A stretch of DNA of 64,000 bases from Gallionella sp. (GTDB taxonomy: Bacteria; Pseudomonadota; Gammaproteobacteria; Burkholderiales; Gallionellaceae), in contig JAQUAI010000003.1 in NCBI GenBank assembly GCA_028687335.1, positions 1 to 64,000 on the forward strand. Direction: 5' to 3'. Made by a program: the position numbers and the translations under genes. Every line of letters begins with the position of its first letter. The first letter of the stretch is position 1. Below, piece after piece: positions 2,928-38,373 of this stretch. Below the pieces are notes generated by a model, which made no database searches, was not told the DNA's origin, and saw nothing but the letters and a program-made list of their open reading frames with translations.

Positions 2928-2946
2928 GTCAACGAACCTTTCTATT

Positions 2947-4941: not shown

Positions 4942-4974
4942 GCGCCGACCACTATTTCCCCTAGTGGTCGGCGC
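4942..4974. other. 13-bp-stem hairpin gcgccgaccacta / tagtggtcggcgc
   Basis: Inverted repeat followed by gatttttattt on the + strand; neighbouring genes are both on the minus strand. Confidence 0.6.
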
Positions 4975-4987
4975 GATTTTTATTTAT

Positions 4988-7649: not shown

Positions 7650-9020
7650 TCACGGCTCTTGTATCGACTCGTCGAGTGCCTTGGTTAGCGGCCACAGCAA
7701 ATAGGAAATCACCGAGCGACTGCCTACTTTAATTTCCGCAGTTAGCGTCATGCCGGGCAATAAGCGGGTTTGTTCCGGCAGACGTTTTAGTTTCGACTTT
7801 CCGAAGTTAATGCGGCTCAAATAATAGGCATCGGCTCCCTGCCCTAAAGCGGCATCACGCCGAAAAGCGTCTTCGCTGATGGTGCGCAACTTTCCGTCGA
7901 GTGTACCGTGACGCTGAAACGGATAAGCATCAAACTTGAGTTGCACCGTATCTCCCGCCCTGACATATCCAACGTCAATGGAGTTGATCTGCACTTCTGC
8001 CTCCAGCTCCGCGCCCAACGGCACCAGCGTGAACATTGGCTCAGCACCTTTGACGACCGAACCCTGAGATAACTTGGCGATTTCCAGCACCACGGCATCT
8101 GCCGGTGAAGTCAGGGTCACCAGACGATGGCGTTTATCCGCCTTTTGTAGCTGTTCCCCGATGGCATCGCGATCACGCGAAGTGGACAATAAATCTTCCA
8201 TCGTCCGCTGCCGCCAACCTTTGACGAATGCGACTTTCTCTGCTTCCGCTGCCGACAGTTCGCTTTTGATTTCCTGTTCTCGGCTTTTTGCCAATTGCTG
8301 ATCTCGCTCCACTTCGAGACGTTTCTCGCGTGCCTCCAACAAGCGGATCGGCGCAGCAAATTTTTGTGCCACCAACCGCTCTTGCATCAGCTCAATCTCA
8401 CGCAAATCTTTTACCCGCGCCGCCAGCACCTGCTGGTCCAACTGGTTGGTACTCAGCGATGCGCGCAAACGCGCCACGCTTTCTTCCATTTTGCGCGATT
8501 GCGCACGATAACTTGCCTCACGCTCAGCCGTCAGCCGCGCCTGTAACTCGGCATCACCGCCGGTCGCCGCACCATCGGCAGCAGGCTTACCGGAAAGCTC
8601 GCCTTCCAAACGCCGCGTTTGCGTATCCAAACTTTGCAGGCGCGTGCGCAACTCACTCTCGTCAGCCTGCGCAAAAGTGGGATCCAGCATTGCCAATATC
8701 TCGCCTTTTTTTACGACTTGGCCAACGCGAACGTTGATGCTTTGGATGATCGCCGTATCCATCGGCTGCACAACAATATTTGGCAGCGGCGTAACCAGCT
8801 TGCCTTGGGCAACAACCACTTGGTCAATTTCAGAAAAAGTAGCCCACAGTAAAAAGATCAGCAGCAATGCCGCCAGCGAATGCACCACAATTTTTGCTGA
8901 CGGCGGATAGGGACGGCGTTCGATCTCGTCCGCATCCGGCAAAAAGTCAATCGCAGCGGCATCCTCTTTGTGCTTGCGCAACAAAGTTGCGATCACAGAT
9001 GGCTTGTCTGTTGGTTCCAT
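7650..9020 (-). CDS. Type I secretion membrane fusion protein, HlyD family
   Basis: Single N-terminal TM, long coiled coil, lipoyl-like halves; directly follows the T1SS ABC gene. Start at 9020 (MEPTDKPS) preferred over 9041. Confidence 0.9.
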   Translation of the reverse strand: MEPTDKPSVIATLLRKHKEDAAAIDFLPDADEIERRPYPPSAKIVVHSLAALLLIFLLWATFSEIDQVVVAQGKLVTPLPNIVVQPMDTAIIQSINVRVGQVVKKGEILAMLDPTFAQADESELRTRLQSLDTQTRRLEGELSGKPAADGAATGGDAELQARLTAEREASYRAQSRKMEESVARLRASLSTNQLDQQVLAARVKDLREIELMQERLVAQKFAAPIRLLEAREKRLEVERDQQLAKSREQEIKSELSAAEAEKVAFVKGWRQRTMEDLLSTSRDRDAIGEQLQKADKRHRLVTLTSPADAVVLEIAKLSQGSVVKGAEPMFTLVPLGAELEAEVQINSIDVGYVRAGDTVQLKFDAYPFQRHGTLDGKLRTISEDAFRRDAALGQGADAYYLSRINFGKSKLKRLPEQTRLLPGMTLTAEIKVGSRSVISYLLWPLTKALDESIQEP

Positions 9021-11128
9021 AAGTGTTGGTAAGTTGAACAACGTGTAAGCAACTCTTCATGGCGACCGCTATCCATCAGGCGGCCATTTTGCATCACCAA
9101 AATAGCATGCGCATTAACCAGTGTGGACAAACGGTGCGAAATCATAATGACCGTTTTACCTACCGCGATACGCGACAAGTTACGAATAAAAATTGCTTCG
9201 CTTTCCGGGTCGAGCGCACTGGCAGCTTCGTCCAAAATCAAAATACGCGGCTTGGAAAGCAGCGCGCGCGCAATCGACAAGCGCTGCTTCTGCCCGCCAC
9301 TCAGATTGCTGGCATTCTCCTCCAGCGGCGTGTCGTATCCCTGCGGCATGCGCTCGATAAACTCGTCCGCACCTGCCGCCTGCGCGACCTCGACTATTTC
9401 TTCAAACGAAGCATCGGGTCGGGTCATCGAAATATTCTCTCTCACGGTTCCGCGAAACAGAAAATTCTCCTGCAACACCACGCCAATTTGCTGCCGCAAA
9501 TGCGACAAGTCGATTTCGCGCGCGTCAACTCCGTCAAAACGTACAACACCTTCCTGCACACTGTACAAGCCCTGTATTAGCTTAGTCAGTGTCGTTTTAC
9601 CGGAACCGCTACGCCCCACAATACCCACGACAGTACCCGCCGGAATTTTGAAACTGGCGCGATCCAGTGCGGTCACGCTGGAGCCCGGATAGCGGAAAGT
9701 AACATCGTCGAACGATATTTCCCCCTGCAAGGCCGTACGCAAACCGCCCGCACCCACCCGCCCTTCCGGTGCGCGATTCATAATCTCGCCCAACATGCGT
9801 ACCGACAAGGCAGTTTGTTGATACTCGTTGATAAGTCCGACGATTTGAATCAGCGGCGATACCACGCGACCGGAGATCATTTGAAAGGCAATCAGCGCGC
9901 CTACCGACAGCGTCTGGTCAAACACATCCTGCGCACCAATCACGATCACGACGATAGGCAAAATCTTTTCAATGAAACCCGTCACCGCTCCGCCGCCAAT
10001 ACCCAGCGTTCCAACATGGAAGTGCGCGTTAATCGCTGCCGCTGAATTTTGATCCCACGCGCGCCGCTGCTTGGGCTCGATGGTCAACGCCTTCACCGTG
10101 CGCATCCCATGTATGGTTTCCACCAACATTGCCTGGCGCGCCCCTTCTGCCGCATACAAGCTATCCAGTCGCCGCCGATAAGTTGGCAGCAACACGGCGA
10201 TGACGCTCGCAATAGCAATGGCGAACACCAACACAATCAGCGCGAGTTTGAATGAGTAATAAAACAGGATGGGTAAAAAAATCAGCAATGCCGTGGTATC
10301 GAGCGCAGTAAAGAACAATCTGCCGGTTAGGAAATTGCGAATGCTCTCCAATTGTTGAACGTGCCGCACAATTACCCCTGCGGAATGCGTCTCAAAATAA
10401 TCGATAGGCAAGGACAACAAATGACTGAAGGTGCGCCGAGTCAGGCGGATGTCGATTTTATTGGTAGCTGCCAGCAGTAGCATTTGCCGCACATAACCGA
10501 ACAGCGACTCAAACACCATCGCAATGGTAATTCCAATTGCCAAGACCCACAGCGTGGATGAGCTTTGGTGCACCAGCACCTTATCGATCACTAGCTGGAA
10601 AAATATTGGCGAAGCGAGTGCCAAAATATGCAATGCCAACGCCGCAATGGCAATATCTCGGAACGCATTTCTTTGCTTAAGTATTTCGGGGATAAACCAG
10701 CGTAAACCGAAAGGCTGATTTTGGTCTGACAGTGCGTGCTGCCGCTTCAAAAAGATTGCTTCGCCCGCCCACCGACTACAAAACTGGTCGCGCCCCATGA
10801 CCATCACCGCATTCATATTTTCCAGCGGATCCAGCAGCGCAATTTTATTTTCTTCCACCACGCCCACGACAATGACACTGTTGCCGTTAGCCAGTCTCGC
10901 CATCATCGGAAACACACCTTTTTGCGCCAGCAATTGTTCCCAGCTAATCGTTTCCGACTTAGCCTTGAATCCAATTTCCGAGGCAATGCGCGTCAATGTC
11001 ACCGAGGTAGGCTCGGCTGCGGGCAGTGCATATTCATGTATCAACCGCTCAGGATTAACCTGCATGCCGTGATGCTGGGCAATCGCGGTAAGGCACTGAA
11101 TAGCGGTATGGGGGAATCGACTGTCCAT
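8993..11128 (-). CDS. Type I secretion ABC transporter (HlyB/PrtD class) with C39-like domain apparently lacking the catalytic Cys
   Basis: Walker A GRSGSGKTT, signature LSGGQKQR, Walker B ILILDEAAS; N-terminal HTAIQCLTAIAQHHG lacks the DCG motif of active C39 peptidases. Confidence 0.92.
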   Translation of the reverse strand: MDSRFPHTAIQCLTAIAQHHGMQVNPERLIHEYALPAAEPTSVTLTRIASEIGFKAKSETISWEQLLAQKGVFPMMARLANGNSVIVVGVVEENKIALLDPLENMNAVMVMGRDQFCSRWAGEAIFLKRQHALSDQNQPFGLRWFIPEILKQRNAFRDIAIAALALHILALASPIFFQLVIDKVLVHQSSSTLWVLAIGITIAMVFESLFGYVRQMLLLAATNKIDIRLTRRTFSHLLSLPIDYFETHSAGVIVRHVQQLESIRNFLTGRLFFTALDTTALLIFLPILFYYSFKLALIVLVFAIAIASVIAVLLPTYRRRLDSLYAAEGARQAMLVETIHGMRTVKALTIEPKQRRAWDQNSAAAINAHFHVGTLGIGGGAVTGFIEKILPIVVIVIGAQDVFDQTLSVGALIAFQMISGRVVSPLIQIVGLINEYQQTALSVRMLGEIMNRAPEGRVGAGGLRTALQGEISFDDVTFRYPGSSVTALDRASFKIPAGTVVGIVGRSGSGKTTLTKLIQGLYSVQEGVVRFDGVDAREIDLSHLRQQIGVVLQENFLFRGTVRENISMTRPDASFEEIVEVAQAAGADEFIERMPQGYDTPLEENASNLSGGQKQRLSIARALLSKPRILILDEAASALDPESEAIFIRNLSRIAVGKTVIMISHRLSTLVNAHAILVMQNGRLMDSGRHEELLTRCSTYQHLWNQQTSHL

Positions 11129-11132
11129 ATTC

Positions 11133-11885
11133 CTAACTCTGAATCAACGGCGGGGGCACGGGAAAATACTGTGCCCAAAATGCCGGTTCGTACTTTGTCC
11201 ATGCATGACACCCCATCGGCAGGCGCATGCCATTTACCGAATAGTAATACGAGGGTTTCAACTCCATCGAGAAAAGTGAAGCGGTAATTTCATTGGGCAA
11301 CACAAAATCGCCGGACAGCGGCCCCATCAAAGAAAAAAACAGGTCTTCACTCGACCCAGATAGATTGAAATATTCGGTTGCGTCAGGGAACTCACGCAAT
11401 AGCGAAATACATTTACGAATGCGGCGCAAACTCAACCCGCCGTTACCCACCATCGCACGTACGCGACGCCCTTTGTCACCAGCGAAACGTCCCAGATTAA
11501 CGAATAGCTCCACCCCTTCCGGCCAAGGTGCCCCCACATAATCGAATGGCTGATTGCACCAGTGATCCAACTCGTCGCGCAACACAACTGCATCCGTCTG
11601 CAAAATCAGCATAAATTCGGCTGCGGCAAAGTACTCGTAAAACTCCACGCTTAACAGCAGGCGGTTATAGCCCTGAATGGATGCAAAATATTCATCGGGA
11701 AACCGAACCTCAGGGATATGAGGGTAACGCGATGCGTAATATCCGTAATCCAAACTAGCTGGCCCGATAAAACGAATATCTCGGCTCGGCAAGGCAGCTA
11801 GCGAACATTCGAGCGAATATTGTTCCACCTCGTCTAACTCCGACTTGTAAACGGGGACCAGCGTAATCACGGATACGCCGCTCAT
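11133..11885 (-). CDS. DUF5672 family protein (putative glycosyltransferase-like)
   Basis: VITLVPVYKSELDEVEQYSLECSLAAL...LILQTDAVVL...FDYVGAPWPEG; start MSGVSV at 11885 overlaps the upstream stop (ATGA). Confidence 0.75.
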   Translation of the reverse strand: MSGVSVITLVPVYKSELDEVEQYSLECSLAALPSRDIRFIGPASLDYGYYASRYPHIPEVRFPDEYFASIQGYNRLLLSVEFYEYFAAAEFMLILQTDAVVLRDELDHWCNQPFDYVGAPWPEGVELFVNLGRFAGDKGRRVRAMVGNGGLSLRRIRKCISLLREFPDATEYFNLSGSSEDLFFSLMGPLSGDFVLPNEITASLFSMELKPSYYYSVNGMRLPMGCHAWTKYEPAFWAQYFPVPPPLIQS

Positions 11886-13118: not shown

Positions 13119-13610
13119 CTATTGCACTTTCTGCATCTGCGTTACCAAACTACCATCCATCCATTCCTGCGCAAGAATCCTGAACTTTCCGGTGAAACCG
13201 TACATTCTGGCCCAGCAATACTGATCATCAAAATACTTGGGAAATGTCAGCTCGGTAATCACATTCACATGCGTCGGATCCTGAAACACTGAGGGATCGG
13301 GGTAGGCTGGCGTAACCGACAAAAAAACCCCGCCCACTTTCAGCACGCGATAGATTTCATTCATTAACTCGACAAATGAATTACGCCGCTGCGGCAAATA
13401 GACGACGCGCGGCACATGCTCCAAGAACTGATACGCGGTAACAAAATCAAAATAGTCGCTTTCAAAAGGAATGCCTTCCACCGCCAGATCGGCATAACCG
13501 ATATTGGGGCCCAAGCCCTCACGTATATCGACCCCGTACAACTCGTCTGCTTTGTACGGATTATTCGGATGAGGGCCACAACCCAAATCCAGTGATTTTG
13601 TTTTTGTCAT
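13119..13610 (-). CDS. Class I SAM-dependent methyltransferase (copy 1)
   Basis: LDLGCGPHPNNPY SAM motif; FLEHVPRV; paralogous to the next ORF. Confidence 0.8.
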   Translation of the reverse strand: MTKTKSLDLGCGPHPNNPYKADELYGVDIREGLGPNIGYADLAVEGIPFESDYFDFVTAYQFLEHVPRVVYLPQRRNSFVELMNEIYRVLKVGGVFLSVTPAYPDPSVFQDPTHVNVITELTFPKYFDDQYCWARMYGFTGKFRILAQEWMDGSLVTQMQKVQ

Positions 13611-13648
13611 TTACCTACCCCTGTCGTACTGATCGGCTGATTACATGC

Positions 13649-14143
13649 TCAAACGGGAACATCTACCTTCTGCATCACGGTCAGCAAGTGGGGGCCGCGC
13701 CACTCTTGCAACCGGATCAGGAACGCGCCCTTAAAGCCGTATGCACTCGCCCAGCGGTTGACGTTGTCAAAATAAGCCGGAAAAGTTTGGTCGGTGATGA
13801 TATTCACATGCGTCGGATCGCGGAATGCCTCAGGGTGCGGATGTGCAGGAGTCAGTGACAAGAACATGCCGCCCGGCTTCAACACCCGATACACCTCATT
13901 CATTAATTCAACGAAAGCGTTTCTGCGGGTCGGTGCGTAAATCACTCGTGGCACATGCTCAAGAAAATCATGCGCACTGACATATTCAAAGAAGTTGTCT
14001 TCAAATGGAATAGGCTCGACGACCAAATCCGCCTGCTTTATTTTCGCTTCCAAGTCTTCCCGAACATCAATGCCGTACAACTCGTCTGCATTAAACGGAT
14101 TTTTAGGCGTTGTGCCACAACCCAGATCCAAACTCTTTGTCAT
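13649..14143 (-). CDS. Class I SAM-dependent methyltransferase (copy 2)
   Basis: LDLGCGTTPKNPF; co-linear with copy 1 over its full length. Confidence 0.8.
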   Translation of the reverse strand: MTKSLDLGCGTTPKNPFNADELYGIDVREDLEAKIKQADLVVEPIPFEDNFFEYVSAHDFLEHVPRVIYAPTRRNAFVELMNEVYRVLKPGGMFLSLTPAHPHPEAFRDPTHVNIITDQTFPAYFDNVNRWASAYGFKGAFLIRLQEWRGPHLLTVMQKVDVPV

Positions 14144-14170: not shown

Positions 14171-16081
14171 TTATTTTTTACAGCCGCTCAACTCATCCAA
14201 CTGCTCGCCAAGTTGCGCCTGTCGCCACATCGCCATGTACGCAGTTTCAAGATTACGGGAAAAATTCTTCGTATCAAACAGTGAACAGGCCGACTTATTC
14301 AGCTTTAATCTGTCTTTCATGTCGCCCAATAACACTGGATTGAGCGCCAGCTGCAAGGCTCGCGTCTCGTATTCGGCATGGCTATGAGTGACCATCTCCG
14401 GTAGCCCCACGGCATACAGCAAACTGCCGGCAACTCTCGACGGGAACGATTCGCCCATATAGGTCAATACCGGCAGCCCTGCCATCAGCGCATCCGCCGT
14501 GGTGGTATGGCCATTATAGGGATGGGTATCAAGGAAAAGATCAGCCTGACGGTAACGCGCTAGGTGATCTTCCACCAGCGGTACCCGTTGAGCAAAAATC
14601 AGGCGGTCACTTGATACGCCGCGCGCTTCCGCTTCTTTGCGCAAATTGCGCTGCGACACCTCGTTGCGCGAGACCAGCCACAACACGCTGTTTGGCACCT
14701 GCACAAGCAAGCGCATCCAGATATTGAACACGTTTGGATTAATTTTGTAGTCATGGCAAAAAGCACAGAACACAAAGCCCTGATCCGGCAATCCGCACTC
14801 GGCACGGCTGGGCGTGCGCTCTGAAATTTGCACGCTACCGTCGGTAGGCAAATAAGCATCCGGCAGATAGACGACTTTTTCAGAATAGAACGGCAGATTT
14901 TGAGCCGGCACAATATAGCGGTCGGCCAGCAAATAGTCGTAATACTCCACGCCCATCGTGCCGGGATAACCCAGATAATTCACCTGCACGGGCACAGGGC
15001 GATAAGCCAAAATATCGGTGCGCGTATCCGAGGTGTAGCCGCCAAGATCGACCAGAATATCAATCTCCATCTCGCGCAACATTTGCGCCACTTGCAGCGA
15101 ACCCATGTCACGCACATCAATAAAGTGATCGAATGCCTTAAGCATGCGCGCGCGCAGGCGGCTGTTATCGTCGATCCCCAGAGAAATGGCATAGGTCTCG
15201 AAACGGGATTTGTCGTGATGCTCAAAAATCCCAGCGGTCAGATGTCCCACCGGATGCTCGCGAAAATCGGGAGAGATATAGGCCAAGCGAATTTTGTCGT
15301 GACGATAACGCTCGCCCTGCCAGATTTTTTTCGGATTGGGCGGGCAATAATTGCTACCAAACAATTGCGCCGCCTGAAAGTGGTCGCTGGCCGAATCTGA
15401 AATCGCCATCAACGCCAGCGTTTTGCAAGTGCGTTTCCCCGCGCGTATCCCCGCCACAATTTTTTGCGACGCAATTGCAAAATCAGTCCAGTCGCAAATA
15501 TGTAAACGCTCGTAGGCCAGTAAGCCAGGACCGTAGTCGTAATCAGGATTGATTTTGAGCAGCCGATCAAACATGGCGATGGCTTGTTCGCTTTGCTTAA
15601 ACTCGGTCAGCAGTATGCCGCTATTGGTCAATGCGGTTTGGTGGTTAGGGTCAATTGCAAGCACACGTTGAAATCGTTCCAGCGATTCTTTGTGCCGCAT
15701 CATATTGCGCAATAGCACGCCGCTATTGGTCAACACCTCAAGGTAATCCGGCTTCACTTGCAGTGCCTGGTCATAACTATCCAGCGCGCCTTGCTTGTCA
15801 CCCAGTGCCTGCAAAATTGCGCCGTGCACAAACCAAAGCGGCGCAAATCCCGCCTGAACTTGCACACCGTGACTGCTGTACTGTTTGGCCTGATCCAGTT
15901 CGCCCGCATTCATCATAATGAGGCTAAGCGAATATAGCGCGGCGGCATTAGCTGGCTCACTCCCCAGAATTTTTCGGAATAATTGCGCGGCCTGCGCCGT
16001 TTCGCCTTGGTTCTGTAAATCAAGTGCTTGGATTAACAATTTATTCACGCCCGTCGCTCCGATGTCGCTGACAAAAAACAA
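14171..16081 (-). CDS. TPR-containing O-GlcNAc transferase-like glycosyltransferase (GT41, SPINDLY/OGT type)
   Basis: N-terminal TPR units; C-terminal ISPDFREHPVGH, VDLGGYTSDTRTDILAYRPVPVQVNYLGYPGTMG, DTHPYNGHTTTADALMAGLPVLTYMGESFPSRVAGSLL. Confidence 0.92.
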   Translation of the reverse strand: MFFVSDIGATGVNKLLIQALDLQNQGETAQAAQLFRKILGSEPANAAALYSLSLIMMNAGELDQAKQYSSHGVQVQAGFAPLWFVHGAILQALGDKQGALDSYDQALQVKPDYLEVLTNSGVLLRNMMRHKESLERFQRVLAIDPNHQTALTNSGILLTEFKQSEQAIAMFDRLLKINPDYDYGPGLLAYERLHICDWTDFAIASQKIVAGIRAGKRTCKTLALMAISDSASDHFQAAQLFGSNYCPPNPKKIWQGERYRHDKIRLAYISPDFREHPVGHLTAGIFEHHDKSRFETYAISLGIDDNSRLRARMLKAFDHFIDVRDMGSLQVAQMLREMEIDILVDLGGYTSDTRTDILAYRPVPVQVNYLGYPGTMGVEYYDYLLADRYIVPAQNLPFYSEKVVYLPDAYLPTDGSVQISERTPSRAECGLPDQGFVFCAFCHDYKINPNVFNIWMRLLVQVPNSVLWLVSRNEVSQRNLRKEAEARGVSSDRLIFAQRVPLVEDHLARYRQADLFLDTHPYNGHTTTADALMAGLPVLTYMGESFPSRVAGSLLYAVGLPEMVTHSHAEYETRALQLALNPVLLGDMKDRLKLNKSACSLFDTKNFSRNLETAYMAMWRQAQLGEQLDELSGCKK

Positions 16082-16121: not shown

Positions 16122-16154
16122 GGAAAAGGCGACGGGTTTTCCGTCGCCTTTTCC
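16122..16154 (-). terminator. Terminator between the giant repeat gene and the OGT-like gene
   Basis: Perfect 14-bp stem ggaaaaggcgacgg/ccgtcgccttttcc; minus strand continues tttttggg. Confidence 0.8.
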
Positions 16155-16177: not shown

Positions 16178-19100
16178 TTACAGACCGCCACTCCCCAACA
16201 CGCCCTTCGTGTTCTCGGATTGACCGGTCACGCTCGTGTTTGTCAGGCCAGTGGTTACCCCCTGCGTGACAGACGTGGGCGGCAGATTGAGATTACCGCC
16301 CGCCACACTGGCATTGAACTGCGTCATTGCATCCACAATGGCACCGACACTGGACGACAGTGCTGCCCCAGAAACTCCCGCCAGCGGTGCAATCGCGCCA
16401 CCAACCCCTGATACGGCATTTGCTTGTGCCGCCGCGAAGGAGGTGATCGCCTGGGCCAACCCGCCCTGACCGCCGGTTTCAGAACCGTCCACTTGGAACC
16501 ACACGTCAGCCATTGCATTGGTCACACCGTCAACGGTGGTGTAGCCCGATGTCAGTCCGACCCAGTTACCATTACTGTTCAGCGAGGTCGCTTGAGCATT
16601 CAGATCGAGAGAGGCTATTCCCAACTCACCCAGCGACTTCAACTCGGCCGCTTGGCTGACACCATCGGAATTAGCATCGACCCACACTCGCAGACTGTCG
16701 AAACCACCGTCGGCACTACTGATGACACCGTCGGCATTACCATCCAGCGCAGCCAACGCTTGATAACCATCGGCCGCCTTCTGACCATCAGCCAACAGCG
16801 TTTGATCGCCGAACAACTCGGTGCCGTCATTGATCTGACCATCACCATTGACATCACGAACCAGCAAACCATCGGTCGGCGCAGCCCATCCGGTTGTTAC
16901 CTTCTGCCCTGTTGCCAGCAAATCGAATTGCACGCCATCGGCAACACTCATGGTGCTGATTCCGTCGCCGTTCAAATCGAGAACCAACGGAGTGTAGAGG
17001 CCATCCACATCTGGTGTGCCCGTCAACGCGGCCAACTGCGGAGCAGACATCCAAGCCAGTTGCGATGTGGACAATGCCATTTGCTGGGTCGTCGACAAGA
17101 CCGCCAAATCACCCACTTCAAGCGTACTCACACCAACCGCACCCAAGGATGCAATTTGAGTCGTGGTCAACGCGGCAGCCTGTGCGGTAGTCAAGACGGA
17201 CAGGTCGCCATAGTTCAAGTTTCTGATCTGCGCAGTGGAGAGGCTAGCCACTTGTACCGTGGTCAAACTAGCCACTTGATCCGTGGCCAAGTTGCGTATT
17301 TGTGTGGTGGTCAACACGCCAATTTGGGCTGTATTCATCACCACCAAATCTCGGGTTTCCAGGGCACCGAGCTGCGCACCAGTCATCACCGCCAACTGTG
17401 CAGTAGACAGGCTGGCGACCTGCGCCGTGGTCAATCCGATAATCTGCTCGCCCAACAGCTTAGTGAATTGCGTCGTCGTCAAGGCGGCCAACTGAGTCGT
17501 CGTCATGGCGGCGACATCGGTTGTTTCAAGCGTTACCAACTGAACATTGGTCAACGCCTGCACTTGCACCGTTGTCAATGCGGCCACTTGAGCGGTGGTT
17601 AGCACTGGTATTTGCTCCGGTGTCAGCGCTTGCAACTGCGTATCCGTCAAGGCGGCCACTTGCACCGTAGTCAGTGTTGGTACTTGCGCCGTGGTCAGAT
17701 AACGAACTTGGCTGCTGGTCAGCGCGGTAATTTGCGCCGTATCCATCACCACCAAGTCTCTCGTTTCCAACGCCATCAATTGCTGAACTTGCAAGCTGGC
17801 CACTTGCGCGGTGGTCAAAGCTGCCATCTGCGCAGTGGTCAGTGCCGCAATTTGCAGTTCGTCCAGGCCGCCGAATTGCGTCGTCGTCAACGCAGCCACC
17901 TGAGTTGTGGTCATAGCCGCCAAATCGCCCACCTCGATATAACGCACTTGAGAAACTGTAAGTGCCTGAACTTGGGTGGTCGTCAACGCGGCAGCCTGCG
18001 CTGTCGTCATGGCAACCACGTGATCCACCGTCAAAGCGGCCACTTGAGCAGTCGTCAGTGCGGCAATCTGCGTCGTCTTCATGCCGGCCACTTGCGTGGT
18101 CAGCAAGTTAGGCAACTGAGCAACGGTGAGTGCAGCAATCTGCGCAGTTGTCATGGTCGCCAAGTCTCCAGTTTCCATCGCCATCAACTGGTAAGACTTA
18201 AGGCTCTGCACCTGCTCAGTTGTTAAACCGGCGGCTTGTGCGGTGTTCAACGCCACCACTTGAACGTCGGTCAAGCGTACCACTTGATCAGTCGTCAACG
18301 CAGAGATTTGCTCCGTTGTCATTGCGGCCAAATCGCTTGTTTCGATGAAGCTGACTTGTGTCGGAGTCAAGCTCTGCACTTGCTCTGTGGTCAACGCCGC
18401 CACTTGCGCCGTAGTAAATGCCTCCACTTGTTGCTGAGTCAGTTTTTGCAACTGCGCACTGGTCAACACTTCGATCTGAGTAACCTTCAGCGCTGCCACT
18501 TGCGCAGTGCTCAGACTCACAATCTGGCTGGTTTTCAGTGCCACGGTTTGGGCCGTATCCAGCGCAGCCAAATCTTGTGTTTCCAAAGCTGCCACTTGCG
18601 TAGCAGTCAGCGCCTGAAGTTGCAGCGTGGTCAAGGCAGCCGCCTGAGCCGTCGTCAATGCTTCGACTTGCACCGTCGTCAAACCAGCCACTTGAGCCGT
18701 AGTCAACACCGCAACTTGCTCTACTGTTAGTTTCGGCAACTGTGCGGTGGTCAACGCAGTGATCTGCGTATTAGTCAGCCCTTGTACCTGCGTTGTAGTC
18801 AGGTTGGCAAGCTGGCTGGTGGTCAGCGCTTGTATCTGAGGCGTACCCAGCGCAGCCAAATCTTCCACTTCGATCACAGGTACTTGAATCAGCGCTGTCA
18901 AGCTGGCCACTTGGTCGGTAGTTAAAGCGGCGAACTGCTTAGTAGTCATTGCCGCAATTTGCTCCTCCGAGAGTTGTTTAACTTGTGTTGTTGTCAACGC
19001 TGCCACGGCTGCCGTATTCAACGCGGCCAGATCGGTTGTTTCCAATCCGGTGAACTGTGCGAACGACAGAACGGCGACTTGCTCGGCAGTCAGCGCAGCT

Positions 19101-22100
19101 GCCTGAGTTTCAGTCAGCGCCGTGATGTGATCCGGGAACAAGCTAGCCATTTGCTCAGTAGTCAGTGCAGCGACTTGCCTGCTAGTCAGACCCGCCAGTT
19201 GATCGGTATTCAAATTGCGAATACGCGCGGCAGTCATCGTCACAATCTGATCTGTATTCAACACAGCCAAGTCGCGCGTTTCCAGCCCCATGACTTGTGA
19301 TGCAGTCAGATTGAGCACCTGATCTGTCGTTAATGCCGCAGCTTGCGCGGTGGTCAACGCGGCGATTTGCGTTTCGGACAACTTGACGAACTGCGCGGTC
19401 GTCAACGCGGTCACTTGCGTGGTTGTCATAGCAGCTAGATCATCAGCTTCCAAATTCTGCACTTGCGTTGCTGTCAGTGCCTGAATTTGGTCAGTTGTCA
19501 GTGCTCGTGCCTGAGCGGTAGTCATGCCGGTAATCTCATCCACCGACAGTACCTGAACTTGTGTAGTTGTAAGCGCAACAAGCTGAGCCGTTGTGAGGCT
19601 GGCAAACTGGTCGCTACTCAGGAAACGTACCTGCTGAGTCGTCAAAGCGGCAATCTGAGCAGTATTCATCGCAGCCAGATCAGTCGTTTCCAATGCCGGT
19701 AATTGTACAAATGGAGTGAGTTTAGCCACTTGCGCAGTAGTCAATGCGGCAGCTTGCGCGGTAGTCAATGCGACAATCTGAGCATCCGTCAAATTGGTGA
19801 TTTGTGCCGTTGTGATTCCAGCGATTTGTGCGGTACTCATCACCACCAAATCGGTTGTTTGCAACGCCTGCAACTGCAACCCCGTTAAACTTTGCACCTG
19901 CACCACCGACAATGCCGCCGCCTGTGCTGTGGTCAATGCCACGATTTCGGCATCGGTCAGCTTGCTAATCTGGGCGGTCGTCATTGCCGCGATCTGAGCC
20001 GTACTCATCACGACTAGGTCAGTCGTTTCCAGCGCCGCCACTTGCGCGGTCGTCAACGCTTGCACTTGGCTAGTCGTCAATGCCAAAGCCTGTGCCGTAG
20101 TCAGGCTGGGCACTTGCGCAAGACTCAACCCAGCAATTTGTGCAGTGGTCATTGCGGCCAATTGCGCCGTTGTTAGCTTGGCCAATTGTGCCGTGGTCAA
20201 AGCCTGAAGCTGACTGCTGGTCAACGCAGCGACTTGAGCGGTACTCATCGCCACCAAATCGGTGGTTTCAAACGCCACCAACTGCTCAGCCGTAAACTTA
20301 GTGACTTGAGCCGTCGTCAACGCAGCAACTTGCGCTGTCGTCAAAGCCACCACTTCAGCCGTTGTCAGATTCGCTACCTGAGCTGTCGTTAGCGCGGCAA
20401 CTTGTGCCGTGGACAATGCGACCAATTGAGTCGTCGTCAGCCCAGCCACCTGAGCCGTCGACAAACCAGCCACTTGGGCTGTCGTCAATGCAGCCACATA
20501 AGTCGCCGACAATTTGGACAATTGCGCATCTGTCAGCGCGGCAACTTGCACCGTAGTCAATACAGCAAGTTGGGCTGTACTAAGCGGAGCAGCTACCGAT
20601 GCTGTTGTCAGCGGAGCAAATTGAGTTGTCGACAGGGATGCCAATTGAGCGGTCGTCAGCGCCACTACTTGTGCCGTCGTCAACTGCGCTATTTGCGCTG
20701 TTGTCAAACTCGATACCTGATCTACCGCCAGAGCAGCTACCTGAGTCGTCTTCAATGCCGCCAAGTCCGACATTTCCAAATTCACCAATTGGGTTGTCGT
20801 CAAACTGGTAATCTGCGCCGTTGTCAACGCAGCAGCCTGAGTGGAACTCAATGCCACTACTTGCGCTGTCGTCAAACTGGACACCTGCGCAGTCGTCATC
20901 GCTGCGATTTGCGTAGTCTTCATAACAACCACATCCCTAGTTTCCAACGCAACAATTTGGCTTGTAGTCAACGCTGCAACTTGGGCCGTGGTCAGATTTG
21001 CCGCTTGCACTTGCGACAAGCCTGCAATCTGACTCGTGGTTAGTGCGGCGACTTGTGACGTGTTTAATACTCCCATTTGAGTCGTCGTCAGCACAGCAAA
21101 ATCCACCACTTCCATTGCAATCAGTTGATCTGTCTTTAATGCAGCAACCTGTGTCGTTTTTAGACTGGGCACTTGCCAAGCCGCCAATGCAGCAATTTGT
21201 GCCGTCGTCATTGCTCCAAGCTGCTCCGTCGTTAGTGCTTGAAGATTCGAAGCACTTAGCACGGCCATATCGCGTGTTTCCACAGCGGCAACCTGCGTAG
21301 TTGACAATGCAACAACTTGAGCAGTTGTCAATGAAGTAATTTGCATTGTCGTTAACGACTCAATCTGCGCCGTATCAAGCGCATGTATTTGTGCCGTTCC
21401 CATTACCGAAACTTGCCAATTTTTAAGTGCGACAATCTGGTCTGTACTTAATGCCATAACTTGCTCAGATGACATTGCCGCGACACGCAACACGTTAAGC
21501 GATGCAACTTGCGTAGTTGATAGTGCGCCGATCTGTTCAGTCGTTAGACCATTTCTCAACTGCGTTGTACTTAGTGCATTAAGCTGACTACTTGTCAGTG
21601 CAGCAACATCGGTCGTTTCCAATGCGGCCAGTTGGGTTGTTGTCAACGCGCCGATTTGCTGATTGGTCAACGCAATAACCTGCGCCGTAGTTAACGCGCT
21701 CACTTGATCTGTGTTCAGTACCGCAATCTGGGTTGTTTTCAATGCCCTCAACTGCGCAGAATTCAAAGTTGCTAAATCTGCCGTCTCCATCGCAACAATC
21801 TGGCTGGTCGTCAACGAAAACAATTGATTGTTGGTCAAAGCCGATACCTGCAACGTGCTCAGCGCGACAATCTGAGCCGTCGATAGCGTGTTCAGCTTGG
21901 CAGTTTCCAAAACCATTAAATCTCGAGTTTCCAGTGCAGCAATTTGCTCAGTTGTCATTACTGCTAGTTGACTTGTCGTCATACCTTTAGTTTGCACTTG
22001 CGACAAGCCTGCAATCTGACTCGTGGTTAGTGCGGCGACTTGTGACGTGTTTAATACTCCCATTTGAGTCGTCGTCAGCACAGCAAAATCCACCACTTCC

Positions 22101-25100
22101 ATTGCAATCAGTTGATCTGTCTTTAATGCAGCAACCTGTGTCGTTTTTAGACTGGGCACTTGCCAAGCCGCCAATGCAGCAATTTGTGCCGTCGTCATTG
22201 CTCCAAGCTGCTCCGTCGTTAGTGCTTGAAGATTCGAAGCACTTAGCACGGCCATATCGCGTGTTTCCACAGCGGCAACCTGCGTAGTTGACAATGCAAC
22301 AACTTGAGCAGTTGTCAATGAAGTAATTTGCATTGTCGTTAACGACTCAATCTGCGCCGTATCAAGCGCATGTATTTGTGCCGTTCCCATTACCGAAACT
22401 TGCCAATTTTTAAGTGCGACAATCTGGTCTGTACTTAATGCCATAACTTGCTCAGATGACATTGCCGCGACACGCAACACGTTAAGCGATGCAACTTGCG
22501 TAGTTGATAGTGCGCCGATCTGTTCAGTCGTTAGACCATTTCTCAACTGCGTTGTACTTAGTGCATTAAGCTGACTACTTGTCAGTGCAGCAACATCGGT
22601 CGTTTCCAATGCGGCCAGTTGGGTTGTTGTCAACGCGCCGATTTGCTGATTGGTCAACGCAATAACCTGCGCCGTAGTTAACGCGCTCACTTGATCTGTG
22701 TTCAGTACCGCAATCTGGGTTGTTTTCAATGCCCTCAACTGCGCAGAATTCAAAGTTGCTAAATCTGCCGTCTCCATCGCAACAATCTGGCTGGTCGTCA
22801 ACGAAAACAATTGATTGTTGGTCAAAGCCGATACCTGCAACGTGCTCAGCGTGGCAATTTGATCGGTAGTTAGCGCAGCAATTTGCGCTACTTTCAAGGC
22901 CTGAAGCTGAATTGACGTTAGTAAGACAACATCATCTGTGGTCAGCGCAGCAATTTGTGCGGTAGTCAGCCCTGCAAGCTGAGCTGTATTGAAGTCAGTT
23001 GCGCCAATTGAGGCGACTTGTTCCGTGCTCATCGCGGTTAGCTGGCTTGTGGTCAAAGCACGTACTTGAGTCGAAGTCAGCGACCCAAGCTGATCAGTGG
23101 TGAGACCTGATATTTGCGTCGATTTTAGTGCTGCCACTTGCGCTGTCGTCAACACCGCCAAGTCGGAAGTCTCTATAGCAGCCAATTGGGTCGTCAGCAA
23201 CGCGGTTAATTGTGTCGTTTTGAGTGCCGAAACTTGCGCTGTCGTCAGCGCAACCATTTGATCGACAGTCAATGCAGCGACTTGCGCTGTCGTCATTGCA
23301 ACCACTTGTGCTGTCGTCAATGCAGACAACTGGTCTGTCGTCAACGCGGCCGTCAGTCGCGTCTGCATGGCAGCAATTTGAGTCGTGCCCAATACGATCA
23401 GATCATTGGTTTCTAACACTTCAAGTTGCGCAGTTGTTAATGCATTTAATTGAACTGCGGTTAGTCGCTCAACTTGAGTACTTGTCAACGACACCATCTG
23501 ATCTGTAGTCAGCGCCGCCATTTGTTTCGTATTAAGCACGGCAAGTTGAGTTGTTTTCAACTCAGCCACAGCCCCCAACTCCAACGCGCCGATTTGTACC
23601 GTAGTTAACGCACCAATCTGCACATTGGTTAGCGATGTCACTTGGCTCGATGTCAGGGAAGCAATTTGATCAGTGGCTAATATCGCAATTTGATTAGTTT
23701 TCAATCCTGCAATCTGCCGAGTTGTCATGGCGACAACATCCTCTAACTCCAACGCCGCAATTTGTTTGGTAGTTAATCCAGCCAATTGCGCTGTTGTTAA
23801 TGCCTGCATTTGTGCTGTCGTTAGCGCTGCAACTTGCTCGGTGTTTATGGCTACAATTTGCGCCAACGTCAACGCAGCGACTTGAGTAGTGGTCATACTA
23901 GGAATATCAACCACTTCCAACGCGGCCACTTGTTTGGTAGTCAAAGCCACCAATTGTGCTGTAGTTAAGGCTTGCAACTGTGCTGCACCGGAATCGTTCA
24001 GCGCGCCAATTTGCGTGGTCGTCAACGCCGCCACTTGCGTTGCTCTCAGCGCGGAGATTTCATAGGTCGACAAAGCAAGCACATCCAGTGCTACTACTTC
24101 AGTGGTAGTCAATGCCGCGATTGCCGCCATTTGTTGTGTAATCGCCTGTGCAGCCGAAAGGGCAGTCAATTGCGCAGTATCAAGCGCGGCGAGCTGAGTT
24201 GTACTCCAACTGGATAGACTAGTCAGCGCAGCGACATCATCCGGTTCCATTGCGGCAATCTGATCCGTTGTTAAACCCGTCATTTGCAACGCTCTCAATG
24301 CTTGCGCCTGCGCGGTGGTCAAGGCCACAATTTGGGCGGTACTCAAAGCTTGAACTTGATTGGAACTCAACCCGACAACCTGCGTTGTTTTAATAGCCGC
24401 GATCTGCGCTGTACTCAAAGCAGCGACTTGCGTGGTTTTCATCGCCGAAATCAGCGTCGGACTCAGAGCTGCGACATCCGCCGTCTCAAGTGCACTAACC
24501 TGCTGGGTATCCATCGCATTGAGTTGAATGGCACTCATTGCAGTTGCTTGAGCAGTAGTCAGGGAAACAATCTGGTTTGTAGTCAATGCAGCCACTTGCC
24601 GGGTTGTCAACCCACCCATCGTCATCGATGCCAAATCCGTAGTTTCCAGTGCAATTACCTGATCCGTACTCAAAGTGGCAATTTGACTGGCAACCAGTGC
24701 TTTAGCCTGCGCAGTGGTCAATGCAGCCACCTGCTCCGTGGTCAACGCGGCGATATGGCGCGTTGACAATCCTCCAACGCTGCTTAGCGCAGCCCAATCT
24801 GTCATTTCCAGCGCTGCAACTTGTGCCGTTGTTAATGCAGCGACTTGAGCAACGCTTAGTACTTTTACCTGTGCAGTATTTAGGGCAACCACTTGATCTG
24901 TCGTCAGTGCCGCCACCTGATTTGCTTTTAATCCTATAACTTGGCTTGTCTTCAGTGAGCCAATTTGGTTCGCATCCAGCGCAACCAGCTGACTCGTTTT
25001 AAACGCCCCTATCTGAACCGCGCTGAACGCAGCCAAATCCGTCGTTTCCAACGCCGCAACCTGCGCTGTCGTCAATGCCTGCAACTGCGCAGAAGTCAGT

Positions 25101-26794
25101 GCGGTAAGCTGCGCAGTGGTCAGCGCGGCCATAAAAGTAGGACTCAAGTCGACAATCTGACTTGTCGTTAATCCAATCAGACTTAAAACGGCAACGCCTG
25201 TCGTTTCCATTGCCGCAATCTGAGATGTGCTTAACGCCGCCAATTGAGTTGCCGTTAATGCTTTGGCTTGTGCTGTCGTCAAAGCAGCAACTTGGGCCGT
25301 GGTCAGCGATGCAATTTGACTTGTTGTAAAGCCGCTCAGACCTGTCAAGGCAGCGACATCCTGAACCTCCATCGCCGCAATCTGGGCAGTGGTCAAACCT
25401 TTCACTTGAGCAGCGGTTAATGCTTTGGCTTGCACCGTATTCAGCGCAACAACTTGATCAGTAGTCATTGCCCCAAGTTGGCTACTGGTCAGCCCAACAA
25501 CTTGCGTTGCCTTGAGTGCTGCCACCTGAGTCGTAAGCAATGCTGCCACTTGATTCGAGTAAAGCGTGCCAAGTTGAACCGCGCTTAATGCAGCCAAGTC
25601 AGCCGTCTCCATAACAACCAATTGCTCCGTAGTCAATGTTCGCAACTGGCTGGCACCCATAGCCGCAGCTTGAGCAGTGGATAGCGCTGCAATTTGCCCT
25701 GTCGTCAGGGCAGCAATTTGCCCTGTCGTCAAACCACTCATAGTCAACACAGCCAAATCGCTATTTTCCATGGCAGCAATCTGCGCTGTAGTCAGTCTCG
25801 ACAACTGCGTCACCGTCAATGCAGCCGCTTGCTTAGTTGTCAGGGCGGCGATTTGAGCAGTTGTCATAGCAGCAAGCTGAGCCGTGGTCATACCTACCAT
25901 GCCACTTAACGCCTCAACATCAACCGATTCCAAAGCAACAACTTGAGCGGTAGTTAATCCCGCCAACTGAACTGCAGTCAACGCTTTCGCCTGCGCTGTC
26001 GTCAGCGCAACAATCTGACTCGTGCTGAGCGCAGCGATTTGATTAGTCTTGAGTCCGGTAATTTGAGTGGTTTTAAAAGCAGCAAATTGATTGGTATCCA
26101 GTGCCGCAATTTGCGTCGTTTTTAGCACCCCCATTTGCACTGCACTCAATGCGGTCAAATCCGTTGTTTCCATCACCGCAATTTGAGCGGTACTAAGTGC
26201 TTGCAACTGCATCGAATTCAGAGCGGCAACCTGCGCGGTACTCAAAGCCACGATCTGAGCTGTACTCAACACCGCGATTTGATTCGTTTTCATCCCGCTC
26301 ATGCCCGTCAACACGGCCAAATCACGCGTTTCGAGTGCAACGACTTGGGCTGTAGTCAACGCCCCTACTTGAGCTGCTGTTAACAACTTTGCCTGAACCG
26401 TTGTTAGCGCAGTCAGTTGATTGGTGTTCAATGCCGCGACTTGACTAGTACTCAACACATTGAAGCCGCCCAATACGGCGACATCATCGACTTCCAACGC
26501 GGCCATCTGCGCCGTTGTCAGCGCCTTAACCTGAGTAATACCCAGCTTTTCCACCTGACTTGTTGTCAGCGCAACCACCTGAGCCGTACTCAACGCAGCA
26601 ATTTGCGCAGTGGTTAGATAAGGAATTCGGGTACTCAATATGGCAGCGAGATCAGTCGTCTCCAAAACAGCAAGCTGAGTCGTTGTAAACGCGGCGACTT
26701 GCGCCGTCGTCAGCGACGCCATCTCGGCGGTGGTTAGGGCGACGATTTCGGCTGTCGTTAACGCTGCAATAGAAGTTGTGGTGGAGATTGCCAT
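16178..26794 (-). CDS. Giant (3538 aa) octapeptide-repeat secreted protein, (L-T-T-A-Q-[VI]-A-A)n, with C-terminal calcium-binding-type domain; putative T1SS substrate
   Basis: Continuous ORF; period-8 repeats over most of the length; C-terminus DLNGDGISTM...GLLVRDVNGDGQINDGTELFGDQT...DGNADGVISSADGGFDSLRVWVDANSDGVSQAAELKSL typical of T1SS-exported proteins; no signal peptide. Confidence 0.93.
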   Translation of the reverse strand: MAISTTTSIAALTTAEIVALTTAEMASLTTAQVAAFTTTQLAVLETTDLAAILSTRIPYLTTAQIAALSTAQVVALTTSQVEKLGITQVKALTTAQMAALEVDDVAVLGGFNVLSTSQVAALNTNQLTALTTVQAKLLTAAQVGALTTAQVVALETRDLAVLTGMSGMKTNQIAVLSTAQIVALSTAQVAALNSMQLQALSTAQIAVMETTDLTALSAVQMGVLKTTQIAALDTNQFAAFKTTQITGLKTNQIAALSTSQIVALTTAQAKALTAVQLAGLTTAQVVALESVDVEALSGMVGMTTAQLAAMTTAQIAALTTKQAAALTVTQLSRLTTAQIAAMENSDLAVLTMSGLTTGQIAALTTGQIAALSTAQAAAMGASQLRTLTTEQLVVMETADLAALSAVQLGTLYSNQVAALLTTQVAALKATQVVGLTSSQLGAMTTDQVVALNTVQAKALTAAQVKGLTTAQIAAMEVQDVAALTGLSGFTTSQIASLTTAQVAALTTAQAKALTATQLAALSTSQIAAMETTGVAVLSLIGLTTSQIVDLSPTFMAALTTAQLTALTSAQLQALTTAQVAALETTDLAAFSAVQIGAFKTSQLVALDANQIGSLKTSQVIGLKANQVAALTTDQVVALNTAQVKVLSVAQVAALTTAQVAALEMTDWAALSSVGGLSTRHIAALTTEQVAALTTAQAKALVASQIATLSTDQVIALETTDLASMTMGGLTTRQVAALTTNQIVSLTTAQATAMSAIQLNAMDTQQVSALETADVAALSPTLISAMKTTQVAALSTAQIAAIKTTQVVGLSSNQVQALSTAQIVALTTAQAQALRALQMTGLTTDQIAAMEPDDVAALTSLSSWSTTQLAALDTAQLTALSAAQAITQQMAAIAALTTTEVVALDVLALSTYEISALRATQVAALTTTQIGALNDSGAAQLQALTTAQLVALTTKQVAALEVVDIPSMTTTQVAALTLAQIVAINTEQVAALTTAQMQALTTAQLAGLTTKQIAALELEDVVAMTTRQIAGLKTNQIAILATDQIASLTSSQVTSLTNVQIGALTTVQIGALELGAVAELKTTQLAVLNTKQMAALTTDQMVSLTSTQVERLTAVQLNALTTAQLEVLETNDLIVLGTTQIAAMQTRLTAALTTDQLSALTTAQVVAMTTAQVAALTVDQMVALTTAQVSALKTTQLTALLTTQLAAIETSDLAVLTTAQVAALKSTQISGLTTDQLGSLTSTQVRALTTSQLTAMSTEQVASIGATDFNTAQLAGLTTAQIAALTTDDVVLLTSIQLQALKVAQIAALTTDQIATLSTLQVSALTNNQLFSLTTSQIVAMETADLATLNSAQLRALKTTQIAVLNTDQVSALTTAQVIALTNQQIGALTTTQLAALETTDVAALTSSQLNALSTTQLRNGLTTEQIGALSTTQVASLNVLRVAAMSSEQVMALSTDQIVALKNWQVSVMGTAQIHALDTAQIESLTTMQITSLTTAQVVALSTTQVAAVETRDMAVLSASNLQALTTEQLGAMTTAQIAALAAWQVPSLKTTQVAALKTDQLIAMEVVDFAVLTTTQMGVLNTSQVAALTTSQIAGLSQVQTKGMTTSQLAVMTTEQIAALETRDLMVLETAKLNTLSTAQIVALSTLQVSALTNNQLFSLTTSQIVAMETADLATLNSAQLRALKTTQIAVLNTDQVSALTTAQVIALTNQQIGALTTTQLAALETTDVAALTSSQLNALSTTQLRNGLTTEQIGALSTTQVASLNVLRVAAMSSEQVMALSTDQIVALKNWQVSVMGTAQIHALDTAQIESLTTMQITSLTTAQVVALSTTQVAAVETRDMAVLSASNLQALTTEQLGAMTTAQIAALAAWQVPSLKTTQVAALKTDQLIAMEVVDFAVLTTTQMGVLNTSQVAALTTSQIAGLSQVQAANLTTAQVAALTTSQIVALETRDVVVMKTTQIAAMTTAQVSSLTTAQVVALSSTQAAALTTAQITSLTTTQLVNLEMSDLAALKTTQVAALAVDQVSSLTTAQIAQLTTAQVVALTTAQLASLSTTQFAPLTTASVAAPLSTAQLAVLTTVQVAALTDAQLSKLSATYVAALTTAQVAGLSTAQVAGLTTTQLVALSTAQVAALTTAQVANLTTAEVVALTTAQVAALTTAQVTKFTAEQLVAFETTDLVAMSTAQVAALTSSQLQALTTAQLAKLTTAQLAAMTTAQIAGLSLAQVPSLTTAQALALTTSQVQALTTAQVAALETTDLVVMSTAQIAAMTTAQISKLTDAEIVALTTAQAAALSVVQVQSLTGLQLQALQTTDLVVMSTAQIAGITTAQITNLTDAQIVALTTAQAAALTTAQVAKLTPFVQLPALETTDLAAMNTAQIAALTTQQVRFLSSDQFASLTTAQLVALTTTQVQVLSVDEITGMTTAQARALTTDQIQALTATQVQNLEADDLAAMTTTQVTALTTAQFVKLSETQIAALTTAQAAALTTDQVLNLTASQVMGLETRDLAVLNTDQIVTMTAARIRNLNTDQLAGLTSRQVAALTTEQMASLFPDHITALTETQAAALTAEQVAVLSFAQFTGLETTDLAALNTAAVAALTTTQVKQLSEEQIAAMTTKQFAALTTDQVASLTALIQVPVIEVEDLAALGTPQIQALTTSQLANLTTTQVQGLTNTQITALTTAQLPKLTVEQVAVLTTAQVAGLTTVQVEALTTAQAAALTTLQLQALTATQVAALETQDLAALDTAQTVALKTSQIVSLSTAQVAALKVTQIEVLTSAQLQKLTQQQVEAFTTAQVAALTTEQVQSLTPTQVSFIETSDLAAMTTEQISALTTDQVVRLTDVQVVALNTAQAAGLTTEQVQSLKSYQLMAMETGDLATMTTAQIAALTVAQLPNLLTTQVAGMKTTQIAALTTAQVAALTVDHVVAMTTAQAAALTTTQVQALTVSQVRYIEVGDLAAMTTTQVAALTTTQFGGLDELQIAALTTAQMAALTTAQVASLQVQQLMALETRDLVVMDTAQITALTSSQVRYLTTAQVPTLTTVQVAALTDTQLQALTPEQIPVLTTAQVAALTTVQVQALTNVQLVTLETTDVAAMTTTQLAALTTTQFTKLLGEQIIGLTTAQVASLSTAQLAVMTGAQLGALETRDLVVMNTAQIGVLTTTQIRNLATDQVASLTTVQVASLSTAQIRNLNYGDLSVLTTAQAAALTTTQIASLGAVGVSTLEVGDLAVLSTTQQMALSTSQLAWMSAPQLAALTGTPDVDGLYTPLVLDLNGDGISTMSVADGVQFDLLATGQKVTTGWAAPTDGLLVRDVNGDGQINDGTELFGDQTLLADGQKAADGYQALAALDGNADGVISSADGGFDSLRVWVDANSDGVSQAAELKSLGELGIASLDLNAQATSLNSNGNWVGLTSGYTTVDGVTNAMADVWFQVDGSETGGQGGLAQAITSFAAAQANAVSGVGGAIAPLAGVSGAALSSSVGAIVDAMTQFNASVAGGNLNLPPTSVTQGVTTGLTNTSVTGQSENTKGVLGSGGL
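21005..21864. repeat. 860-bp perfect direct repeat, copy A (inside the giant gene)
   Basis: Appears identical base-for-base to 21992..22851 (offset 987 bp). Confidence 0.93.
21992..22851. repeat. 860-bp perfect direct repeat, copy B (inside the giant gene)
   Basis: See copy A; encodes the same ~286-aa stretch. Confidence 0.93.
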
Positions 26795-26989
26795 TTTCGT
26801 ACCCTTTCAAAACATGCCATTGGGACTAGCGTGATATTCATAACCGGATATTTCAGCCATTCCGGCCCATATCCTTAGTTACCCTAGGTGCAAAGCACCC
26901 CAAAAACCTAAAAAGATTCATTTCACCCAGATAGAAGCTGCAATTACATCAAGCAAGCCGTAACTCTATCTACAGGTCGTCAATGCCTA

Positions 26990-27016
26990 ATATCGGCCAA
27001 ATTGGATGAAACTTTA
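26990..27016 (-). promoter_or_regulatory. Sigma-28 (FliA)-type promoter upstream of the giant repeat gene
   Basis: Minus strand TAAAGTTTCATCCAATTTGGCCGATAT; consensus TAAAGTTT-N11-GCCGATAA, one mismatch, exact spacing; ~195 bp upstream of the ATG. Confidence 0.75.
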
Positions 27017-27164
27017 GTGTGAGGTTCAAGAGAAAGAGGCGGGAAGCCTGCCCTCAATCACGAAGATGCACCCGTACCGTAAACGTACCATGCACATCCG
27101 ACAACAACGCCGCGAAAAGAACAGGATTTCCCTGCCTTATCTTGGGTTATAGCATTTGAGGGTT

Positions 27165-27887
27165 CTAATCCTTGGGTTTTACGGCGAGCCAGGCGGCCAC
27201 CACGATTCCAGACTCGTAAAGCAGCCAAAGTGGGATCGCCAGCATGAACTGGGAGACAACATCAGGGGGAGTAAAAATTGCACCGACGACGAATGCGCCG
27301 ACAATGACGTAAGAGCGAACCTCACGAAGCTTCTCCACGGAAACTACGCCCATGCGTACCAGCACCACGACCGCCACCGGCACCTGAAAGGTAACGCCAA
27401 AGGCCATGAACATCCCCAGCACAAAGCTAAGGTATTTATCAATATCAGTCATCACAGCCACACCTTGCGGTGCAGCGGCGGTAATAAAGCCGAATACGAT
27501 GGGGAATACCGCAAAGTAGGCAAACGCCATTCCGCTAAAAAACAGCAAGGTACTGGCAATAATGAGAGGAAGTACCAGTGTTTTTTCGTGCGCATACAAG
27601 CCCGGCGCAACGAAACTCCACATCTGATACAAGATATAAGGAAGGGCAATTAACAACGCCGTCATCATCGCCACTTTAAGCGGCACAAAGAACGGTGTGG
27701 TGACATCGGTCGCAATCATCTGGCCTCCCGCCGGTAACTTCGCCAGCATGGGCTGCGCCAACAAAGCGTACAGATCAGAAGCCCAAGGAAATAAACAGAT
27801 AAACACCAGTAGCAACGCGATGACCGAATTCATCAGGCGTGAGCGCAACTCAAGCAAGTGCGCAATAAAGGTATCGCTGGTACTCAT
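27165..27887 (-). CDS. tatC: Sec-independent protein translocase TatC
   Basis: HLLELRSRLMNS..., six-TM pattern, operon with tatAB. Confidence 0.96.
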   Translation of the reverse strand: MSTSDTFIAHLLELRSRLMNSVIALLLVFICLFPWASDLYALLAQPMLAKLPAGGQMIATDVTTPFFVPLKVAMMTALLIALPYILYQMWSFVAPGLYAHEKTLVLPLIIASTLLFFSGMAFAYFAVFPIVFGFITAAAPQGVAVMTDIDKYLSFVLGMFMAFGVTFQVPVAVVVLVRMGVVSVEKLREVRSYVIVGAFVVGAIFTPPDVVSQFMLAIPLWLLYESGIVVAAWLAVKPKD

Positions 27888-37441: not shown

Positions 37442-37468
37442 TAAAGATTTTGACAAACCATCCGATAA
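37442..37468 (+). promoter_or_regulatory. Sigma-28 (FliA) promoter of fliC
   Basis: TAAA-N15-TCCGATAA, exact spacing, ~100 bp upstream of the flagellin start. Confidence 0.8.
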
Positions 37469-37566: not shown

Positions 37567-38373
37567 ATGGCTGCCTACATCAATACAAACATCGCTTCCC
37601 TGAACGCTCAACGTAACCTGAACAGTTCACAGAGCGCCTTGCAAGTTTCCTTGCAACGCCTGTCTTCCGGTTTGCGTGTAAACAGCGCTAAGGACGATGC
37701 TGCCGGGCTGGCAATTTCTGAAAAAATGGGCGCGCAAATTCGCGGCCTGAACCAAGCCGCCCGCAATGCCGCCGATGGTATTTCGCTTGCGCAAACAGCT
37801 GAAGGCGCCTTGGGCAACATTGGCAACAACTTGCAGCGTATGCGCGAGCTTGCCGTTCAAGCCAGCAACTTTACTTCGACCAACGATATTGCTTCGATTG
37901 ATGCAGAATATGCGCAACTCCACGCGGAAAACCTGCGCATTATTGCTCAGACCAGTTTTAACGGCACTTCGTTGCTGAGTGCTGCATTGACTGCCGATTT
38001 CCAAATCGGTGCCAATAACGGCCAAACCATCACCGTTGCAACTACAGCCGCAACCGCAATGACTGCTGCCGCAACACTGGGGGCTACACCAACCACTGCT
38101 GCAGCAGAACTGTTGACTCTGGATGTCGATATTGCTGCTGTCAATGCAACCCGTGCCACATTCGGTGCAACACAGTCGCGTTTTGAAGCAGTTATCGGCA
38201 ACGTGCAAAACACCGCAGAAAACTTGACCGCATCCCGCAGCCGCATCGTGGATGCCGATTACGCAGCTGAAACTGCGCAATTGACCCGCAACCAAATCTT
38301 GCAACAAGCAGGTACAGCGATGCTGGCGCAAGCGAACCAATTGCCCAACACCGTGTTGACCCTGTTGCGTTAA
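37567..38373 (+). CDS. fliC: Flagellin
   Basis: MAAYINTNIASLNAQRNLNSSQSALQVSLQRLSSGLRVNSAKDDAAGLAISEKM; C-terminal DYAAETAQLTRNQILQQAGTAMLAQANQLPNTVLTLLR; short central domain. Confidence 0.98.
   Translation: MAAYINTNIASLNAQRNLNSSQSALQVSLQRLSSGLRVNSAKDDAAGLAISEKMGAQIRGLNQAARNAADGISLAQTAEGALGNIGNNLQRMRELAVQASNFTSTNDIASIDAEYAQLHAENLRIIAQTSFNGTSLLSAALTADFQIGANNGQTITVATTAATAMTAAATLGATPTTAAAELLTLDVDIAAVNATRATFGATQSRFEAVIGNVQNTAENLTASRSRIVDADYAAETAQLTRNQILQQAGTAMLAQANQLPNTVLTLLR

Follow-up and report, generated by a model that had tools for sequence, protein, structure and literature searches.

A FliA (sigma-28)-type promoter in front of giant ALTTAQ-repeat genes, with linked glycosyltransferase and type I secretion genes

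What is a promoter of the flagellar late type doing in front of a gene that is neither flagellar nor chemotactic? The question is raised by a 64,000-nucleotide stretch of the genome of a Gallionella sp. (contig JAQUAI010000003.1, positions 1 to 64,000; hereafter "the window"), in which a FliA (sigma-28)-type site lies in the gap between tatC and a gene for a giant protein of the ALTTAQ-repeat kind (Table 1). The explanation that we consider probable, taken as a whole, is that the giant gene is controlled by sigma-28 and that its product is a glycosylated, type I-secreted protein that swimming cells carry on their surface or release.

Table 1. Location of features discussed in the text (window coordinates)
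Feature	Position	Strand	Details or basis
FliA (sigma-28) promoter, putative, giant gene	26990..27016	-	-35 TAAAGTTT 27016-27009, 11-nt spacer, -10 GCCGATAT 26997-26990
FliA promoter of flagellin, putative (internal positive control)	37442..37468	+	5' of flagellin ORF 37567-38373
ALTTAQ-repeat giant protein	16178..26794	-	3538 aa, no Cys, 8-aa period; PF20080, 1913.2 bits
Repeat region, Thr/Ser-rich, one short helix per 8 residues (predicted)	17045..26767	-	AlphaFold2; PDB 9zem sequence match
C-terminal Ca-binding-type domain, homologue of FrpC self-processing module, Thr for scissile Asp	16481..16993	-	PDB 6sjw/6sjx
Intrinsic terminator-like hairpin, strong, between giant and GT41 genes	16122..16154	-	14-pair stem + T run
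TPR + GT41 (SPINDLY/OGT-type) glycosyltransferase	14171..16081	-	PF13844, E 4e-84
Two small methyltransferases (13649-14143, 13119-13610)	13119..14143	-	PF08241
Glycosyltransferase	11885-13057	-	PF13524
DUF5672 protein	11133-11936	-	PF18922
Type I secretion ABC transporter, HlyB-like, C39-like domain	8993..11128	-	TIGR01846
HlyD-type periplasmic adaptor	7650..9041	-	TIGR01843, E 1.6e-88, above cut-off

The site itself is readily described. The minus strand from 27016 to 26990 reads TAAAGTTT-CATCCAATTTG-GCCGATAT, departing at a single position from the pattern of FliA class III flagellar promoters, TAAAGTTT-N11-GCCGATAA, with the exact spacing and 195 bp from the ATG of the giant ORF. An earlier, sequence-only reading of the window had proposed just this near-consensus site, together with one of the same class before the flagellin gene; both proposals are borne out, the latter by a pattern match, TAAAGATT-N11-TCCGATAA. 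One consensus match alone is no proof of function, and the motif might be a chance resemblance, with the giant gene driven by another promoter. That this should be so is very improbable, for several reasons: 1) only two matches to the strict core, T[AC]AAG-N15-CCGATA, turn up in 64 kb, one 5' of the giant gene and the other 5' of flagellin, where 0.03 are expected (the full pattern, with up to three mismatches allowed, is matched three times in the window, 0.42 being expected); 2) no sigma-70-like site was detected in 26700-27300; 3) the FliA site is conserved in relatives and enriched throughout the ALTTAQ family, as set out next. (An Rfam scan of 26600-27300 found no RNA element.)

Giant ALTTAQ genes are present in four of the 61 Gallionellaceae genomes, and a coding-strand FliA site stands ~100-195 bp upstream of all four. 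Searches at the level of family, order and class, and of named genomes, yielded 72 non-redundant ALTTAQ upstream regions, which were scored alongside 303 control genes taken from the same loci. A score of at least 18 is reached by 30 of the 72 (dinucleotide shuffles, 1.35; antisense, 0; other genes, 7/303; Fisher 4e-18) and a score of at least 19 by 23 (shuffles, 0.2; antisense, 0; other genes, 5/303; Fisher 6e-14). The five controls at the higher threshold are four flagellin-like ORFs, identified as such by N-terminal sequence, and the window's own fliK; thus, even the control matches are flagellar. (A technical note: the weights of the promoter score were set by hand, before the control comparisons; start codons were picked by rule; and the loci, apart from passing the redundancy filter, are not independent of one another phylogenetically.) A dyad count, which presupposes no motif and is independent of these weights, places at its top pieces of T[AC]AAGTT-N11-GCCGATA, the sigma-28 consensus. 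The genes with a site belong to Gallionellaceae, many other Betaproteobacteria, a Pseudomonas, Iodobacter, Oryzomonas and a metagenome-assembled Riflebacteria genome. The remaining 42 of the 72 regions score below 18; the link to sigma-28 is therefore common rather than universal, or else some of the starts are wrong or variants of the consensus have been missed. The ALTTAQ genes of Alphaproteobacteria and of one Acidobacterium are without the site (scores 13.7-17.0; Mann-Whitney p 0.012); a canonical FliA is, to our knowledge, missing from most members of these lineages. Within the order, a strong FliA match is found in 14 of 15 genomes with ALTTAQ genes and in 255 of 385 others (Fisher 0.02), the 14 having been counted by E-value (<1e-60) and the rest against the curated threshold, on the assumption that the two are equivalent.

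The Gallionella genome is equipped to use such a promoter: it encodes FliA (match E 3.6e-80), the anti-sigma factor FlgM (PF04316) and FlhDC. Genome-wide, the full pattern with up to two mismatches is matched 11 times, and its reversed control twice. Apart from the site of the giant gene, those with one mismatch precede flgM/flgN, flgK and flhDC, a type I secretion ATPase gene, and a small gene that has a FlaG-family gene behind it, so that the majority stand 5' of flagellar genes. Membership of the giant gene in the flagellar late (FliA) regulon, already suggested by the sequence-only reading, is supported by more than the one motif: each of the family's four giant genes has a site upstream, the sites are enriched across genera, the prior-free dyads return them, and the genome has FliA together with a set of flagellar genes bearing like sites. 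We regard it as highly probable, on computational evidence and without expression data. What sets the giant gene apart from known class III promoter targets is that it is itself neither a flagellar nor a chemotaxis gene.

The site before flhDC (267 bp 5' of it; L005, G000:C15:89963-89989) is a separate matter, which suggests feedback on the flagellar master regulator.

What, then, does this promoter serve? The protein is a member of Pfam family PF20080 (ALTTAQ) far above the curated cut-off of 26.4 bits, with 96 matched stretches; its regulation and its gene cassette are worked out in the present analysis. The repeats are enriched in Ala, Thr, Leu and Gln with a period of 8 residues. AlphaFold2, applied to a 321-residue repeat stretch with 16 aligned segments, places one short helix in every 8 residues (pLDDT 93.6), and the repeats are thus predicted by modeling to form a superhelical screw of 8-residue helical units. 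A fold search gave only weak matches, the best being mesothelin (TM ~0.35). A PDB entry, 9zem ("HeliScrew4"), matches residues 2509-2617 (window 18944-19270) by sequence, and to judge from that match the structure of this type of repeat appears to have been solved already. A literature search for HeliScrew found no paper on 9zem; an open-access search found none in which the ALTTAQ name or motif carries this meaning; and a search combining sigma-28 with type I secretion turned up nothing on the family.

Two observations on the repeats may be added. Within the giant ORF (window ~21014-22969), repeat matches of identical score lie 987 bp apart (21686/22673; 21182/22169), which suggests that this part was recently duplicated in tandem. 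In a congener that has no giant gene there is a short ALTTAQ frame of ~346 aa (G028:C14:23999-24499, L013), possibly a remnant.

The C-terminal domain is homologous to the self-processing module of FrpC/ApxIVA-type RTX proteins (E 1.4e-42 against 6sjw/6sjx), with EF-hand-like Ca sites in the alignment. Its AlphaFold model is poor (pLDDT 56), and the assignment consequently rests on sequence alone. In FrpC, the Asp414-Pro415 bond is cleaved and Asp414 makes the crosslink (PMC7078468). The giant protein lacks this Asp-Pro: it has Thr-Pro, and in all 46 family members compared, itself included, Thr or Ser occupies the position ahead of Pro. Clip-and-link processing of the FrpC type is therefore not expected in the ALTTAQ family. 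Nor is the module universal, some ALTTAQ proteins ending directly after their last repeat.

Behind the giant gene stands a strong terminator-like hairpin, also found 3' of the ALTTAQ stop codon in most relatives examined, and beyond it a run of genes, from GT41 to HlyD, separated by short gaps or overlapping. The run thus supplies one of the things looked for with a type I substrate, an adjacent ABC transporter and HlyD adaptor, with the reservation that the ABC protein scores 667.8 bits against TIGR01846, under the curated cut-off of 725.6, and is therefore to be called HlyB-like rather than a formal member. The pair GT41 and ABC is retained in the other three carriers (G029, G036, G042); the genes between them vary and, by eye, resemble nucleotide-sugar or glycan genes, and homologs of the methyltransferases adjoin GT41 at two loci (L094 and L191). 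Close orthologs of GT41 (66-77%; next best 46%) and of the type I ABC (79-83%; next best 38%) are confined to the same four of 61 family genomes that carry the giant gene. The associated p of 1.9e-6 overstates independence, the four carriers being related.

Farther afield, GT41 also lies directly 3' of ALTTAQ genes in Pseudomonas, Caballeronia, Undibacterium, Oryzomonas and Riflebacteria loci; in those of Gallionellaceae, Pseudomonas, Caballeronia, Oryzomonas and Riflebacteria it starts 113-507 bp past the ALTTAQ gene. This arrangement is not the rule: where enough flanking sequence is available, the majority of ALTTAQ loci lack a GT41 right behind the gene; at other loci a type I ABC gene comes next, and at many there is neither.

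Does the glycosyltransferase act on the giant protein at all? It is well established that glycosylation islands can lie close to flagellin genes, and both in the window and in G036 flagellin is encoded ~11 kb off; GT41 and the glycan genes might modify flagellin, the giant gene merely adjoining its glycosylation island. We think this unlikely, because close GT41 orthologs track the giant gene (4/4 carriers, 0/57 others) whereas flagellin is found in 48 of the 61 genomes, and because GT41 directly follows ALTTAQ genes in distant phyla. The route of export invites a similar doubt: FliA timing would suit a protein that leaves the cell through the flagellar type III apparatus as a late substrate and ends up in the flagellum or attached to it, and the members that stop right past the last repeat, lacking the C-terminal module, fit that possibility. 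To this we give still less credence, since the type I ABC/HlyD pair lies in the same gene run and is co-inherited with the giant gene, whose C-terminal domain is moreover of the kind found in an RTX protein secreted by a type I system.

The preferred reading, of a sigma-28-controlled, glycosylated and type I-secreted protein, brings to mind LapA and other giant type I-secreted adhesins, which are likewise very large, repetitive and encoded beside ABC and HlyD genes; the giant ALTTAQ protein, too, is probably at the surface or extracellular. It differs from them in its all-alpha 8-residue repeats, its FliA promoter and its adjacent GT41, and no LapA-type retention module is seen at its N-terminus. 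The sequence of events might be as follows: 1) FliA would transcribe the giant gene among the late flagellar genes, on flagellin's schedule. 2) The terminator would probably keep the giant protein abundant while allowing limited read-through to GT41, the glycan genes and the type I exporter (co-transcription being an inference). 3) The Thr/Ser-rich repeats would probably be O-glycosylated in the cytoplasm, as inferred from the neighboring enzymes. 4) Secretion would probably proceed through the ABC/HlyD pair, also by inference. 5) Outside the cell, the protein would fold into a long helical screw capped by the calcium-binding domain. 6) Its inferred role would most likely be to serve swimming cells as a coat or adhesin, on the surface or outside the cell. 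The sequence-only reading had linked the protein to motility or surface behavior; the link remains plausible, and is strengthened by the co-inherited glycosyltransferase and exporter, but has not been demonstrated.

One can generalize further, on shakier footing: ALTTAQ proteins as a whole may be widespread, flagellum-coupled, screw-shaped giant glycoproteins, each with a dedicated GT41 and a dedicated type I system, that are produced in step with sigma-28 and either cover swimming cells or ready them for contact with surfaces. We offer this tentatively, at somewhat less than even confidence. Short of that, a regulator, a modifying enzyme and an exporter, all of them probable, can be named for an uncharacterized repeat family; the flagellar late regulon is extended to a class of giant proteins; and what swimming cells carry on their surface becomes testable in cultured carriers (Duganella, Undibacterium, Massilia and environmental Pseudomonas species).

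The type I secretion ATPase gene mentioned above belongs to a second type I system of the same genome (L043, G000:C13, ~1-5214). Its FliA-like site, TAAAGTTT-N11-GTCGATAA, lies 91 bp before the gene; an HlyD protein and a LuxR-type regulator are encoded there as well, and an ORF at the contig end has an N-terminus that, by eye, is similar to LapA-type retention modules.
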